DNA from: Anaerolinea sp.
GTDB taxonomy: Bacteria > Chloroflexota > Anaerolineae > Anaerolineales > Villigracilaceae
Assembly: GCA_020723805.1 (NCBI GenBank)
Contig: DYID01000031.1
Span: forward strand, 1 to 42,426
Direction of reading: 5' to 3'
Length of the DNA stretch: 42,426 nt
In this document: in pieces, positions 13,254 through 41,731 of the stretch
How the letters are laid out: every line of letters begins with the position of its first letter
Numbering within the stretch: the first letter of the stretch is position 1
Notes under the pieces: model-generated
The model's database searches: none
What the model was told of the DNA's origin: nothing
What the model saw: only the letters and a program-made list of their open reading frames with translations
Position numbers and translations under genes: made by a program

Positions 13254-14297
13254 ATGTCTCCCTTCCTCTTCTTTTGCATCCTTGCCATCATCTCCTACCT
13301 TGGCGTGTGGCTCATCCGCCGCTATGCGGAACGCCGCCAAATCCTCGACCATCCCAGCGAGCGCAGTTCCCACGCTCTGCCCACGCCGCGCGGCGGCGGG
13401 GTGGCGATCGTGCTCCTCGTAACGGGAGCAGGCTTATGGTCCATGAGCGAAGCGGATTGGAGGCGCAGCCTGGTGTACCTCCTCTGTGGTCTGGTCATCG
13501 CCTTTCTCGGCTGGCGTGATGACCTCCATTCCCTCTCGCCGCGCGTCCGTTTTGCGGTGCAGGGACTGGTTGCCGCCGCCTCCATTTGGGGGCTGGGATA
13601 TTTCGACTCCGTCACCATTCCACTGTTCGGTAAATTACAACTGGGCATCGTCGGTATCGTCATCACGTTTTTGTGGATCGTCGGTCTGACCAACGCCTAC
13701 AATTTCATGGACGGCATTGACGGTATGGCGGGCGGCGTGGCATTCGCGGCAGGACTGGGCTGGGCGCTGCTCACCGCAAACATCGCCTATCTGGCAAACT
13801 CGTTCGTCTTTTGGATTGCGCTGGCGATTGCCGCAAGCAGTCTTGGGTTTCTCGTTCACAACTGGCAGCCCGCCAAAATTTTCATGGGCGATGTTGCCAG
13901 CACTTTTCTCGGTTATAGTTTCGCGGTCATGCCCATGCTCGCCTCCGACCGGGAAGGCGATGCGCTCATGCTTGGCACGCTTCTGTTGTGGACGTTCATC
14001 ATGGATGCCGGGGTCACTTTCATCCGCCGCGCCGTCAGGCGGGAGAACGTCTTTGCCGCGCACCGCACGCATCTCTATCAGCGCCTCGTGATTGGCGGAT
14101 ATTCCCACGCGCAGGTCAGCGTTCTGTATATCGTGCTCACGCTGGTCGCCCTGCGCCTCGCCTCTGCCTGGAGCAGCGGAAGTCAACTCGCTTCTGCCCT
14201 CATTCTCTTTGGACTTCCATTCACTTACTATGTGCTGAATCGCCACGCAACTACGTTATTAAACACAAAGGATACCAAAGGCACCAAGGCTTCTTAA
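13254..14297 (+). CDS. MraY/WecA-family glycosyl-1-phosphate transferase
   Basis: A 347-residue polytopic membrane enzyme of the polyprenyl-phosphate N-acetylhexosamine-1-phosphate transferase family. Visible motifs are the DD pair at 89-90 (FLGWRDDLHSL), NAYNFMDGIDGMAGG at 147-161, and KIFMGDVASTFLG and HRTHLYQRL further on. It moves a sugar-1-phosphate from a UDP-sugar to undecaprenyl phosphate, starting an O-antigen- or teichoic-like glycan; WecA/WbpL-type rather than MraY because the peptide-site motifs are absent and the neighbours are polysaccharide genes. The last 13 residues (LLNTKDTKGTKAS) are encoded by the arm of a dispersed repeat (14259-14289), so the original C-terminus has probably been replaced. 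Confidence 0.87.
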   Translation: MSPFLFFCILAIISYLGVWLIRRYAERRQILDHPSERSSHALPTPRGGGVAIVLLVTGAGLWSMSEADWRRSLVYLLCGLVIAFLGWRDDLHSLSPRVRFAVQGLVAAASIWGLGYFDSVTIPLFGKLQLGIVGIVITFLWIVGLTNAYNFMDGIDGMAGGVAFAAGLGWALLTANIAYLANSFVFWIALAIAASSLGFLVHNWQPAKIFMGDVASTFLGYSFAVMPMLASDREGDALMLGTLLLWTFIMDAGVTFIRRAVRRENVFAAHRTHLYQRLVIGGYSHAQVSVLYIVLTLVALRLASAWSSGSQLASALILFGLPFTYYVLNRHATTLLNTKDTKGTKAS

Positions 14298-14404
14298 CTC
14301 ACCTTACGCAGTTCCTTCGTAGCGCGACATTTATGTCGCCTGAAAACGCGAGATGCCCTTCGGCAGGCTCAGGACAAGAATCTCACGCTACCGCGTAACA
14401 TCAC
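14298..14404. repeat. 84-bp-family element, copy with 23-bp insert
   Basis: Left end CTCACCTTACGCAGT; right end ACCGCGTAACATCAC (degenerate). It is flanked by 7-bp direct repeats TTCTTAA at 14291-14297 and 14405-14411. The inner parts match the intact copy at 36721, except that the CGAGAT-AAATCTCG hairpin is interrupted by a GCCCTTCGGCAGGCTCAGGA-type sequence (about 14355-14378). Confidence 0.8.
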
Positions 14405-14433
14405 TTCTTAATTTGTAACTGTTCAGCCATATC

Positions 14434-14570
14434 GCTGTCCTGCGGACTAAAGTCCTGCCTCAGTATCTAAAAGTCGGTTGAAACCGGCTTGGTGTGCCAG
14501 TCCGAAGGACTTCCATAAACTGAGCAGGCGGCTTTCGCGAAGCACCCTTTAGGGCAGCCCTGCTCGCCCA
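14434..14570. repeat. GCGGACTAAAGTCC-type composite palindromic repeat
   Basis: Successive small hairpins (GGACTAAAGTCC, AGTCGGTTGAAACCGGCT, AGTCCGAAGGACT) bounded by CCTGCCTCAGT and ACTGAGCAGGC, which are near inverted repeats. The leading 22 bases recur at 28163-28184. Together with the flanking elements this fills the gene-free stretch 14298-14651; nothing else was seen there. Confidence 0.6.
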
Positions 14571-24785: not shown

Positions 24786-24830
24786 TATAATTTCGACCTG
24801 CCTGATTGTACCCGATTTTTGTGTTACTCA

Positions 24831-24914
24831 CTAACGTTAGGCACCGTCCCGAAGGTTTGGGCAAAATCCAAGCCCGATTTATGAAAACCTTCGGGACGAT
24901 TTGCGAAAGGTGCG
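24831..24914. repeat. 84-bp element, subfamily with CGTCCCGAAGG arms
   Basis: Exactly 84 bp, bounded by TTACTCA (24824-24830) and TTATTCA (24915-24921), a 7-bp near-perfect direct repeat. Inner arms CGTCCCGAAGGTTT and AAACCTTCGGGACG make a long hairpin with a smaller GGGC / GCCC hairpin inside. The right flanking repeat overlaps the stop codon of the thiolase-like gene. Arms match the copy at 40140. Confidence 0.75.
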
Positions 24915-26075
24915 TTATTCAACCTTTTGCAAAACGTGACTGACCGCCGTGGAGGCGGGACCGCCCAGACTTTGAATCAACGCCGTCTTCGCGTTCGGGA
25001 TTTGATTCGCTTCACCCCGACCTCGCAACTGGGTCACTGCATCCACAGCCTGATACACGCCCGCAGCCCCTCCGGCAAACCCTCGCGCCTTCATCCCGCC
25101 CATTGTCGCGCAGGGGATTTTTCCTTTCAAGCCAATCTCGCCGTCGGCGGCAAGTTTCCAGCCTTTGCCTTTGACCGCAAACCCGACCGCTTCGAGTTGC
25201 AGCGCGGCGTAGATGCTGAAGACATCGTGATACTCGAACAGGTCAATGTCATCCAGAATCACGCCTGCCTGTTTCATGGCTTTGCCTGCCGAAAGTTGGG
25301 CAGTGTTGAAGAAGAGCATGTCCTTGCGGTCGTGCAGGGCAAGCGTGTCGGACGCGGCGGCGGAGCCGGCAATCTTCACGAGCGGATGCGGAAAATTATC
25401 CGGCAACAACTCACGCCTTGTCAAAATCACCGCCGCCGCGCCGTCCGCATTCGGAGCCATGTCGAACATGTTGAGCGGGTCGCTGACCATCTCCGCTTTG
25501 GCGTAGGTCTCAGGCTTGATGGCTTTGCGGAACATGGCGTTCGGGTTGGCAACTGCGTTGGCATGAGCAGTGAGAGCAAAGCCTGCAAAGCCATCTTTGG
25601 GGACTTCGTATTCGTGCATGTAACGCTGCATGAGGAGCGCGGCTTGCGCGGCGGGCGTCATGCCCTGCACAGACTCGAAATCGGCGTCGCCGGTGGTGGC
25701 GAGGGCGGCGTCCACGCCCGCGCCGACCTTGTCGGTGAATTTCTCCACGCCGACGACGAGCGCCACGTCAACGAGTCCGCTTTTGACGGCGAGATAGCCT
25801 TGCCGCAGCGCCGCGCCGCCGGATGCGCCCGCGGCTTCGACGGTCACGGCTTCGATGCCGAGCAAGCCCGCAAAATCCGCGATCAGCACGCCGAGATGCG
25901 CCTGATTGGAGAGATTCGGCGCGAGCATGTTGCCGGCAAACAGCGCCTGCGGCTTCAGCCCGCCCGAGTCTTTGATTGCGTCCTGAATGGCGGCAAAGGC
26001 AAGGTCGCGCAGACCGATGTCCCAATGCTCGCCGACTTCCGTTTGTCCGATACCTGCGATGATGATGTCTGTCAT
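24915..26075 (-). CDS. Archaeal-type thiolase-fold protein lacking catalytic Cys
   Basis: A 386-residue thiolase (SCP-x / archaeal acetoacetyl-CoA thiolase type): MTDIIIAGIGQTEVGEH, LVVGVEKFTD, MFDMAPNADGAAAVIL, LFEYHDVFSIYAALQLEAVGF, and a C-terminal LGGPASTAVSHVL. In active relatives the nucleophile lies in EAACASGG; here it reads EAAGASGG with Gly83 (GGC codon). The usual GHPVGATG near the C-terminus reads GFAGGAAG, so that catalytic His is missing too; only the EYHDVF His remains. The rest is intact and the frame is clean. It may be a structural partner in a thiolase / HMG-CoA synthase / DUF35 assembly, an enzyme of altered chemistry, or recently inactivated. The start at 26075 begins the conserved domain; a longer frame from 26147 reads repeat DNA. 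Confidence 0.85.
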   Translation of the reverse strand: MTDIIIAGIGQTEVGEHWDIGLRDLAFAAIQDAIKDSGGLKPQALFAGNMLAPNLSNQAHLGVLIADFAGLLGIEAVTVEAAGASGGAALRQGYLAVKSGLVDVALVVGVEKFTDKVGAGVDAALATTGDADFESVQGMTPAAQAALLMQRYMHEYEVPKDGFAGFALTAHANAVANPNAMFRKAIKPETYAKAEMVSDPLNMFDMAPNADGAAAVILTRRELLPDNFPHPLVKIAGSAAASDTLALHDRKDMLFFNTAQLSAGKAMKQAGVILDDIDLFEYHDVFSIYAALQLEAVGFAVKGKGWKLAADGEIGLKGKIPCATMGGMKARGFAGGAAGVYQAVDAVTQLRGRGEANQIPNAKTALIQSLGGPASTAVSHVLQKVE

Positions 26076-28162: not shown

Positions 28163-28240
28163 AGCGGACTAAAGTCCTGCCTCAGTGCATGGAAGCCCTG
28201 CGGGCTGACAGGCGAGTCGGCTTTTTGCAGACTCCCATGA
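28163..28240. repeat. GCGGACTAAAGTCC-type repeat, second copy
   Basis: GCGGACTAAAGTCCTGCCTC matches the start of the repeat at 14452. It is followed by other hairpin units (AGCCCTGCGGGCT and GAGTCGGCTTTTTGCAGACTC). It lies in the spacer between HMG-CoA synthase and the vapC gene, with nothing else recognised up to 28323. Confidence 0.6.
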
Positions 28241-35811: not shown

Positions 35812-36585
<774 letters not shown>

Positions 36586-36637: not shown

Positions 36638-36720
36638 TTGAGAGACTCTCACATTTCCTCGTTTGCTCTCGAAACGGTTATGGCTGTATAGCAAATTTCA
36701 ACGTTTTGGGGTATCCTTAA

Positions 36721-36804
36721 CTCACCTTACACAGTTTTCTCGTAGCGCGACATTCATGTCGCCTGAAAACACGAGATAAATCTCGCGCTACCGCGTAAGG
36801 TGAG
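36721..36804. repeat. 84-bp element, intact reference copy
   Basis: Exactly 84 bp with terminal inverted repeats CTCACCTTAC-C and G-GTAAGGTGAG, flanked by perfect 7-bp direct repeats TCCTTAA at 36714-36720 and 36805-36811. Inside are two hairpins: CGACATTCATGTCG and CGAGATAAATCTCG, set in longer complementary arms (TAGCGCGA / TCGCGCTA). No coding capacity. It lies between pyrH and frr. Confidence 0.85.
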
Positions 36805-36842
36805 TCCTTAACTCAACTTCACATCAAATTCAGGAGATTGTG

Positions 36843-37400
36843 GTGATAAAAGATATCCTCAACGACGCCGAAACCCGTATGCGAGGCGCCATTTCTGTTC
36901 TGCACGACGACCTGGCAGGCATCCGCACCGGACGCGCCAGCCCCGCCCTCGTCGAACGCCTGCAGGTGGAATATTACGGGACGCCCACGCCTCTCCAGCA
37001 GCTTGCCTCCATCAGCGTTCCCGAGCCGCGTTCCCTGATGATCAAGCCTTTCGACGCCTCCACCCTGAAAGCCATCGAAAAAGCGATTCTCGCCTCGGAC
37101 CTGGGGCTGACCCCCAACAGCGACGGCAAAGCCCTCCACCTCAACCTGCCTCCGCTCACCGAAGAACGCCGCCGCGAACTGGTCAAACACATGCATCACC
37201 GCCTCGAGGAGGCGCGCATCGCCATCCGCAACATCCGCCGCGATGCCCTCAACGACATGCGCGAATTCGAAAAGGAAAAACTCATTTCCGAGGATGAACT
37301 CGAACGCGGCGAGGCAGACCTTCAAAAACTGACCGATAAATTCATCGAGGAAATCGCCGAGCAGGGCAGGAAAAAAGAAGCGGAAATCATGGAAGTGTAG
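36843..37400 (+). CDS. frr: Ribosome recycling factor
   Basis: A 185-residue RRF that splits post-termination ribosomes with EF-G. The three-helix bundle is evident: [49 protein letters not shown], then [32 protein letters not shown] and the C-terminal helix. Two adjacent GTG codons begin the frame; the one at 36843 is better spaced from AGGAG (36832-36836) than that at 36840. The 84-bp element upstream separates frr from pyrH, so it may have its own promoter. Confidence 0.96.
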
Positions 37401-40045: not shown

Positions 40046-40080
40046 CTCATCTTACGCAGTGGCGCGAGATTTATCTCGCG
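40046..40080. repeat. Truncated 84-bp-family copy
   Basis: CTCATCTTACGCAGTGGCGC followed by the GAGATTTATCTC hairpin matches one end of the element family (reverse orientation relative to 36721) and then breaks off. The rest of 39995-40045 and 40081-40132 shows nothing clear. Confidence 0.6.
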
Positions 40081-40139
40081 CTCATCTGCTTCCTGCTGTG
40101 ATTAAATTGCATCATCCAAGCCGCTGATTGCTTGATTAA

Positions 40140-40223
40140 CTCACCTTACGCGAAACGTCCCGAAGTTTCTCGCAAATTGTGCCTGTTTTCCAGCCAAACC
40201 TTCGGGACGGTACGTAACCTCAG
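40140..40223. repeat. 84-bp element, CGTCCCGAAGG subfamily
   Basis: Exactly 84 bp between perfect 7-bp direct repeats TGATTAA at 40133-40139 and 40224-40230. Left end CTCACCTTACGC is as in the 36721 copy, but the interior has the CGTCCCGAAG / CCTTCGGGACG arms of the 24831 copy. It thus links the two subfamilies. Confidence 0.8.
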
Positions 40224-40259
40224 TGATTAATTCTCCACGGATTACCTTCTCTAACGACC

Positions 40260-41537: not shown

Positions 41538-41602
41538 ATTAAACACAAAGGACACAAAGATCACAAAGGTTTGCACTTCGTGGACTTTGTGTCCTTTGTG
41601 TT
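41538..41602. repeat. AAACACAAAGG inverted repeat, compact copy
   Basis: Arms TTAAACACAAAGGACACAAAG and its near complement CTTTGTGTCCTTTGTGTTAA bound a short centre with CACTTCGTG, four bases after the hutI stop. The same arms occur split at 14259 and 14608. The right arm runs directly into the flanking TTAAAAA of the next element. As an RNA it would form a long hairpin able to affect the hutI 3' end. Confidence 0.75.
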
Positions 41603-41607
41603 AAAAA

Positions 41608-41710
41608 CTCATGTTACGCGGTGGCGCGAGATTTATCTCGCGTTTTCGGGCGACATGAACCCCCTTGCAGGGACAATGTGTCGCGCTACGAGAAAACTGC
41701 GTAAAGTGAG
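41608..41710. repeat. 84-bp-family element, inverted, with 19-bp insert
   Basis: Ends CTCATGTTACGCGG and CTGCGTAAAGTGAG; flanked by perfect 7-bp direct repeats TTAAAAA at 41601-41607 and 41711-41717. Opposite in orientation to the 36721 copy. The CGACAT-ATGTCG hairpin loop carries an extra 19 bases containing CCCTTGCAGGG, itself a small palindrome. Confidence 0.82.
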
Positions 41711-41731
41711 TTAAAAACTTTGGAGACAATC

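Follow-up and report, generated by a model that had tools for sequence, protein, structure and literature searches.

A family of hairpin-carrying MITEs in an Anaerolinea genome, probably moved in trans by an IS701-family transposase

In many bacteria, the stretches between genes often hold short palindromic repeats, and the way in which these spread is mostly obscure. One palindrome-bearing segment lies at 36721-36804 of the window, the whole stretch of 42,426 nucleotides analysed here. It is preceded by a gene with a Pfam AA_kinase match at 35830-36585, on the basis of this match probably pyrH, and followed by one matching RRF at 36840-37400. What kind of repeat is this, and what could have moved it there? 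In the following, G000 is the host genome and other G numbers are other genomes; C numbers denote contigs and L numbers loci.

The element at 36721-36804 and its relatives in the window

The original prediction described an 84-bp non-coding mobile element, a MITE or REP-type element, flanked by target duplications. The 84-bp length, the inverted ends CTCACCTTAC/GTAAGGTGAG and the perfect 7-bp flanks TCCTTAA at 36714-36720 and 36805-36811 can all be read directly from the window sequence. In brief, the left TIR, CTCACCTTACAC (consensus CTSAYSTTACGC), occupies 36721-36732 on the plus strand, and the right TIR occupies 36793-36804 and reads CTCACCTTACGC on the minus strand; both ends recur in the genome-wide count given below. 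The element is short and non-coding with TIRs of 10-12 bp, as is typical of MITEs. By inspection, its interior, here called type A, holds two palindromes: GTAGCGCGACATTCATGTCGC at 36742-36762 on the plus strand, bearing the GTAG tag that text of PMC3733652 describes in REPs, and GTAGCGCGAGATTTATCTCGT at 36771-36791, with the GTAG tag on the minus strand. The segment folds strongly as a single strand (with the ends included, z is -6.9 for one strand and -7.9 for the other), and the two terminator-like sites nearby fall outside it.

The window contains four further full copies. Two of these had been noted before, and both hold up: the copy at 14298 ends at 14404 (107 bp, with TTCTTAA at 14291-14297 and 14405-14411), and the copy at 41608 ends at 41710 (103 bp, with TTAAAAA at 41601-41607 and 41711-41717). 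Both are of type A, the first with an extra CCCTTCGGCAGGCTCAGGAC inside its second palindrome and the second reversed, with 19 extra bases in one palindrome. The other two full copies had been overlooked, as had half a type A element at 40046-40080 on the plus strand, consisting of a single end and a single palindrome. These two copies are of a second type, B, which has the ends and the 84-bp length of type A and an unrelated interior. One, at 40140-40223, carries the hairpin CGTCCCGAAG..CTTCGGGACG between copies of TGATTAA (40133-40139 and 40224-40230); the other, at 24831-24914, is worn, and its flanks TTACTCA (24824-24830) and TTATTCA (24915-24921) differ by one mismatch.

Other repeats lie close to these copies. 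A second repeat directly adjoins two of the MITEs, at 41538-41607 and 14258-14292. At 41538 it forms the palindrome TTAAACACAAAGGACACAAAG..CTTTGTGTCCTTTGTGTTAA; in G302 (L302), a CTTTGTG palindrome like it is carried as cargo by a MITE. An identical 23-bp repeat, GCGGACTAAAGTCCTGCCTCAGT, is found at 14442-14464 and 28164-28186 and contains the palindrome GGACTAAAGTCC; hairpins like it are MITE cargo elsewhere (L234; G416:C17:56959-57078).

Copies, target duplications and empty sites

Further copies, on which the original prediction had made itself depend, exist genome-wide. A BLAST search of the host genome with the 84-bp element gave at least 46 matches (40 of 173 candidates scored, self-matches and opposite-strand matches of the window included). 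The end pattern YTSAYSTTACGC occurs 113 times forward and 108 times reverse, against 7 and 0 times for the reversed-pattern control. TIR pairs were also sought without regard to their interior in C5, C11, C13, 40 kb of C20 and the window. With at most one flank mismatch we found 37 pairs (18, 7, 5, 2 and 5, respectively) against 2 for the reversed pattern, and with perfect 7-bp flanks 28 pairs (13, 6, 5, 0 and 4) against 1; a few hits with poor ends are due to chance.

Different duplications at each site had been taken as the mark of transposition. Of 79 TIR pairs gathered blind to their flanks, from the scanned contigs and from loci fetched by similarity, 45 have an exact 7-bp duplication and five an exact 8-bp one, whereas 1000 permutations of the right flanks gave on average 1.3 matches of 7 bp and never more than 5. 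The mark of transposition is thereby upheld, and most copies are duplicated, but 29 of the 79 pairs have neither duplication; some of these fall one mismatch short, and some are overlapping, nested or false pairs. The length is exactly 84 bp in 48 of the 79. A preference for AT-rich targets, often containing TTAA, had also been suggested. The AT-richness stands, but in place of a simple TTAA the pooled duplications (both strands, 53 entries, some drawn from one array) give the consensus TTANTAA, with frequencies of T 0.88, T 0.66, A 0.79, any base, T 0.79, A 0.66 and A 0.88.

Among the perfectly duplicated elements of C5, C11, C13 and the window, 4 of 26 lie inside ORF proxies (crude ones, of at least 120 aa), compared with 89% of random windows. 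The genes flanking 25 elements are convergent in 8 cases, divergent in 4 and co-directional in 13, with no clear bias. It should be noted that the end of G000:C13 (from 222073, L096) and the start of G000:C14 (L099 1-75) both break inside a type A MITE, in the same hairpin loop, and both carry TTGCACCTTTACAAATTATTCTAACAATGG; probably another repeated element was inserted in the MITE loop.

The interval holding the element at 36721-36804 is matched in 17 of the 18 genomes of the genus, host included. Sites lacking the element and keeping one 7-bp copy had been proposed as a check, and three congeners provide them: in the three genomes aligned, G014, G001 and G007, the sequence is uninterrupted, with TCCTTAA present once and the element absent. 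The number of ends varies widely within the genus, from 0+2 in G003 to 77+76 in G014 and 113+108 in the host, and copy number is volatile within the genus. Judged from sequence comparison, we regard the identity of 36721-36804 as a MITE as secure, because it has TIRs, locus-specific duplications and empty sites, and because other bacteria have an autonomous IS whose ends and duplication length match its own (see below).

The other half of the original prediction, a REP-type element, applies to the interior and not to the element as a whole. By eye, the two main interiors of the host both recall REPs: that of type A consists of two palindromes in inverted arrangement, each ending in GTAG, and type B has CGTC at its ends. 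Could the elements then be REPs or REPINs spread by a RAYT (Y1 tyrosine) transposase, with the outer inverted ends incidental? The REP-like interiors, both the inverted GTAG pairs and the CGTC hairpins, would fit, and bare type A palindromes cluster too, e.g. at C11 43200-43400. Y1/RAYT transposition is not known to make target duplications, and the exact 7-bp duplications counted above bound the TIRs, not the palindromes. Interiors unlike REPs also occur between the same ends. We therefore consider spread by RAYT extremely unlikely.

In the text of Di Nocera et al. (2013, PMC3733652), GTAG and CGTC are the tags of two REP super-families, and the interior palindromes described here, by inspection, have these tags in common with them. 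The same text describes CGTC REPs as being without a dedicated transposase, and some REP dimers of Anabaena variabilis as sitting within longer palindromes. The words 'target site' and 'duplication' are absent from its main text, whereas the elements described here have duplications.

In C11 at 43200-43400 (L075), GTAG-type palindromes (GCGACAT..ATGTCGC) form a tight cluster that resembles a REP array and is free of MITE ends.

Interchangeable interiors and chained copies

A scan for elements of 84-114 bp in a collection of genomes from 84,980 species gave at least 104 stretches. Of the 104 loci listed, 98 were analysed first, six being outside the range set. Among the matches listed, these 98 loci hold 102 elements, with a maximal exact duplication of 7 bp in 59, 8 bp in six, 6 bp in four, 9 bp in one, and at most 3 bp or none in 32; lengths of 84 bp (35 of 102) and 105-106 bp (22 of 102) are over-represented. 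In 396 genomes of the class, elements of 81-111 bp were found in 22 and elements of 112-142 bp in 21, with 0 for the reversed-pattern controls; the pattern used here misses elements that do not have a CTCA end. Together with a few host copies, these sources provided 149 elements, which fall by blastn into at least 40 interior clusters, all with one end set.

Most of these interiors are hairpins. With the ends excluded, the folding z-score is below -3 in 24 and below -2 in 29 of 40 cluster representatives (among the matches listed). Nearby control segments, 450 bp to either side, gave 0 of 74 and 4 of 74, respectively. Since these are largely coding, intergenic segments are the fairer control; they gave 9 of 94 and 15 of 94 (Fisher p 3e-9 for z below -3).

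The over-represented lengths were also examined for helical phasing, using one modal length per cluster (38 values, the transposase-deletion element and the 95/132 pair left out). A period of 10.5 bp gave R 0.267 and p 0.067, and the p of 0.017 at 21 bp is uncorrected and the best of eight periods tried; phasing is not supported as it stands.

Many interiors resemble repeats that we take to be common in metagenome-assembled genomes. In the host, interiors also occur on their own, some shaped like terminators (at C11 41558, a hairpin followed by seven T); the host counts of interiors free of TIRs, made with the core motif and one mismatch allowed, are partly due to chance matches in coding sequence, and only some are clear hairpins. 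At the foreign loci, 117 interior hits have both ends, six have one and nine, in four of the 40 clusters, have none; these figures refer to the matches listed and are biased toward ends by the way the loci were found. Elements of G350 and G021, both from the host's family, are identical in sequence to elements of two MAGs, one labelled Anaerolineae and one Chloroflexi (L169, L209). We place no trust in the titles Klebsiella pneumoniae (L170, L211, L212) and Borreliella garinii (L195), which are labels given to MAGs.

Two origins may be considered for the interiors. We suggest that hairpins were captured from palindromes of the host, and that they are favoured perhaps because, placed between genes, they are tolerated or serve usefully as transcript ends. 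Alternatively, separate mobile palindromes may have been inserted later into one ancestral MITE. Extra stretches do lie within palindromes, 19 bp in the 103-bp class, 23 bp in the 107-bp class and both or longer ones in elements of 130 and 150 bp, and some interiors exist as copies free of TIRs. Types A and B, on the other hand, have only their ends in common and show no trace of a shared interior, and in both the usual length is exactly 84 bp, where a nested series should have left remnants. We find later insertion doubtful and continue with capture.

More tentatively, we speculate that the IS701-type end set (see below) might be a general hairpin shuttle in several phyla, one that captures local palindromes, spreads them between genes and chains them via 7-mers into composites that move together. 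The palindromes so carried might be terminators, REPs and repeats such as CGAGAAATCTC, GCGGGAATCC, GGGAGAGGG, CAATCTCC and AACAGGATT. If true, although we hold the opposite to be the better bet, palindromic repeats widespread among bacteria, CGTC REPs among them, would have one of their origins here.

The chaining itself is visible in the sequence. In the stretches examined we found nine distinct junctions in which a 7-mer stands between two element ends. Five arrays contain one 7-mer three times: L025 (TGAGTAA), L039 (TTAAGAT), L040 (TGATTAA), L046 (TTATTTT) and L058 (TAATTAA). In the arrays of L025, L039 and L040 a type B element is joined to a type A element, which excludes simple duplication of a unit. 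The pair of L025, B-TGAGTAA-A on contig C1, recurs in L021 on C20, where 175 of 175 bases are identical. On C1 the pair shows TGAGTAA three times, and on C20 it has TTATATC on both outer sides and TGAGTAA inside. The simplest reading is that the 175-bp pair formed at C1 and moved as a unit to C20, where a new duplication would have been made. This suggests that neighbouring MITEs can move together.

Tandem arrays might instead come from unequal recombination or replication slippage and not from repeated insertion at one 7-mer, since a 7-bp repeat can multiply units by slippage. Adjacent units that differ in type, as in the three mixed arrays, are impossible by slippage, and the 175-bp pair has a new duplication of its own around it at the second site. 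For mixed arrays this explanation is refuted, and as a general account we consider it improbable; arrays of one type, e.g. L058, could be slippage products. We thus keep to repeated insertion at one 7-mer for the mixed arrays.

A candidate transposase and known systems

The original prediction saw no transposase in the window, and this agrees with a whole-genome search for the partner family proposed here, which found none. A transposase with matching ends was found in other bacteria. The likely mobiliser, as far as ends and duplication length can tell, is an IS701-family transposase of NCBIfam NF049921. A complete ORF of 352 aa in G052, on a contig that ends immediately upstream of it, encodes the protein P0001. 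The scores of this protein are 350.7 bits for NF049921 (cut-off 250) and 56.4 bits for Pfam DDE_5 (PF13546; cut-off 27).

Among 60 relatives, the closest transposase copies are those of G019, G033, G039 and G052, and transposase fragments are present in two genomes of the host's family. The contig ends of G039 that bear the end motif are the two halves of an IS. In one half the ORF starts with MKNEKLLDLYSDYLISAFGQTTATGLS about 35 bp inside its TIR, and the other half holds the protein terminus, with its TAA stop codon lying within the other TIR. Pairing the N- and C-terminal contig ends of G039 by their flanks gave the duplications TGATGTAA and TTACCTTA, of 8 bp and not 7. In G019, from the host's family, the N- and C-terminal contig ends have the 7-bp TTCTTAA in common; in G033, compared by eye, we found no matching pair of N- and C-terminal contig ends. 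Several contigs of G033 (C10, C34, C43, C53, C59 and C61; L122, L125 and L127-L130) break inside copies of one IS, which means that this member of the host's family has multiple copies of the autonomous element.

Relatives of the transposase are found in 404 plasmid records. Five were read (H1-H5), and all five have these ends. A Polaromonas plasmid IS of 1102 bp has TATTTAA twice and a second, of 1099 bp, has TTACTAA twice, with the ends CTGATGTTACGC and CTGACCTTACGC; a clear duplication is missing at three of the five copies. The plasmid IS and the contig ends of G019 thus provide an autonomous element with the ends and duplication length of the MITE. A 110-bp element in G249 still encodes the transposase start MKNSKLLDLYSD, approximately the first 12 codons, and on this evidence is plainly an internal-deletion product of the IS. 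It has no matching 7-mer flank, and its folding z-score is +1.4.

The host genome, despite having the richest copy number, gave 0 matches to NF049921 at E ≤ 0.001. A search of C5, C11, C13, part of C20 and the window for an autonomous element gave no TIR pairs 320-4000 bp apart with 7-bp duplications (reversed control, 2). A partner in the same genome is not required for MITE status, and in G000 it may have been lost or may be unassembled.

Co-occurrence was examined in 110 genomes of the family, 40 of which have any NF049921 match and 13 a match above the cut-off; in 14 control genomes the same search gave matches in five, one above the cut-off. With relatedness uncorrected, any match is found in 17 of 28 end-rich genomes (at least 10 ends) and in 23 of 82 others (p 0.003), strong matches by a threshold that we set ourselves in 9 of 28 and 11 of 82 (p 0.044), and matches above the curated cut-off in 5 of 28 and 8 of 82 (p 0.31). 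The association fades with stricter matching. Besides the host, 10 further end-rich genomes of the 28 lack any match to NF049921 at this E-value limit of 0.001. Shared ends and duplication length support the proposed partner family, and the co-occurrence evidence is weak.

G017 is the sole member of the genus above the NF049921 cut-off, and its transposase is 30% identical to P0001. Its IS701-type element (L134) has different, sister ends, TTAGGACTTACGCAGT/ACTGCGTAACTTCTAA, approximately 1.04 kb apart. The host has a 121-bp element with sister ends, CAGGACTTACGCA/TGCGTAAGTACTG, and the 7-bp duplication TCACTGA at G000:C11 99292-99412 (L077). As their ends are similar, the two are possibly a sister MITE-IS pair.

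Based on these observations, we suggest that the element at 36721-36804 is very probably a non-autonomous MITE, moved in trans by an IS701-family (NF049921) DDE transposase with the target TTANTAA, carrying hairpin cargo and able to form arrays. The transposase would recognise the ends of about 12 bp, CTSAYSTTACGC, and would insert the element at the target TTANTAA, a 7-bp palindrome rich in A and T that is duplicated in the process. If recognition is independent of the interior, nearly any short DNA between two ends could be moved, and the interiors that survive would mostly be hairpins, in the host REP-like palindromes with GTAG or CGTC tags. Reuse of the 7-mer beside an element would give arrays whose junctions keep the 7-mer, and the outer ends of an array pair could then move the pair as a single unit. 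About 40 unrelated interiors, mostly hairpins, are hereby linked to a particular transposase family, a specified 12-bp end and a specified target, which makes the idea of palindromes as MITE cargo directly testable.

A published description of these elements was not found among the papers listed by the searches, as judged by titles and abstract openings, with most subscription journals outside their scope. Of the known systems, one is the IS701 family: the partner transposase matches transpos_IS701_2 (NF049921) above the curated cut-off, and 'IS701 family transposase' is the annotation given to the copy in Polaromonas naphthalenivorans. As a passage of PMC2266710 defines them, IS701 elements measure 1400-1550 bp and, with few exceptions, make duplications of exactly 4 bp, whereas the plasmid copies seen here are approximately 1.1 kb with duplications of 7 (or 8) bp. 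The relative in Cyanobacterium HL-69 is annotated 'group ISAba11 transposase'. An ISAba11 insertion reported in a passage of PMC7885321 is of similar size, approximately 1.1 kb (nt 98631-99731), but has 5-bp duplications in place of 7 or 8 bp. MITEAba12, as outlined in part of PMC6382973, is 111-114 bp long with a 9-bp duplication and is tied to ISAba12 by its ends and duplication length. The elements described here are likewise bacterial MITEs linked to an IS by common ends and duplication length, but the IS and the duplication differ, and MITEAba12, as outlined there, has one conserved interior where these have many. The kind of element is a known one, the bacterial MITE; what is unusual is one end set flanking many interiors, mostly strong hairpins.
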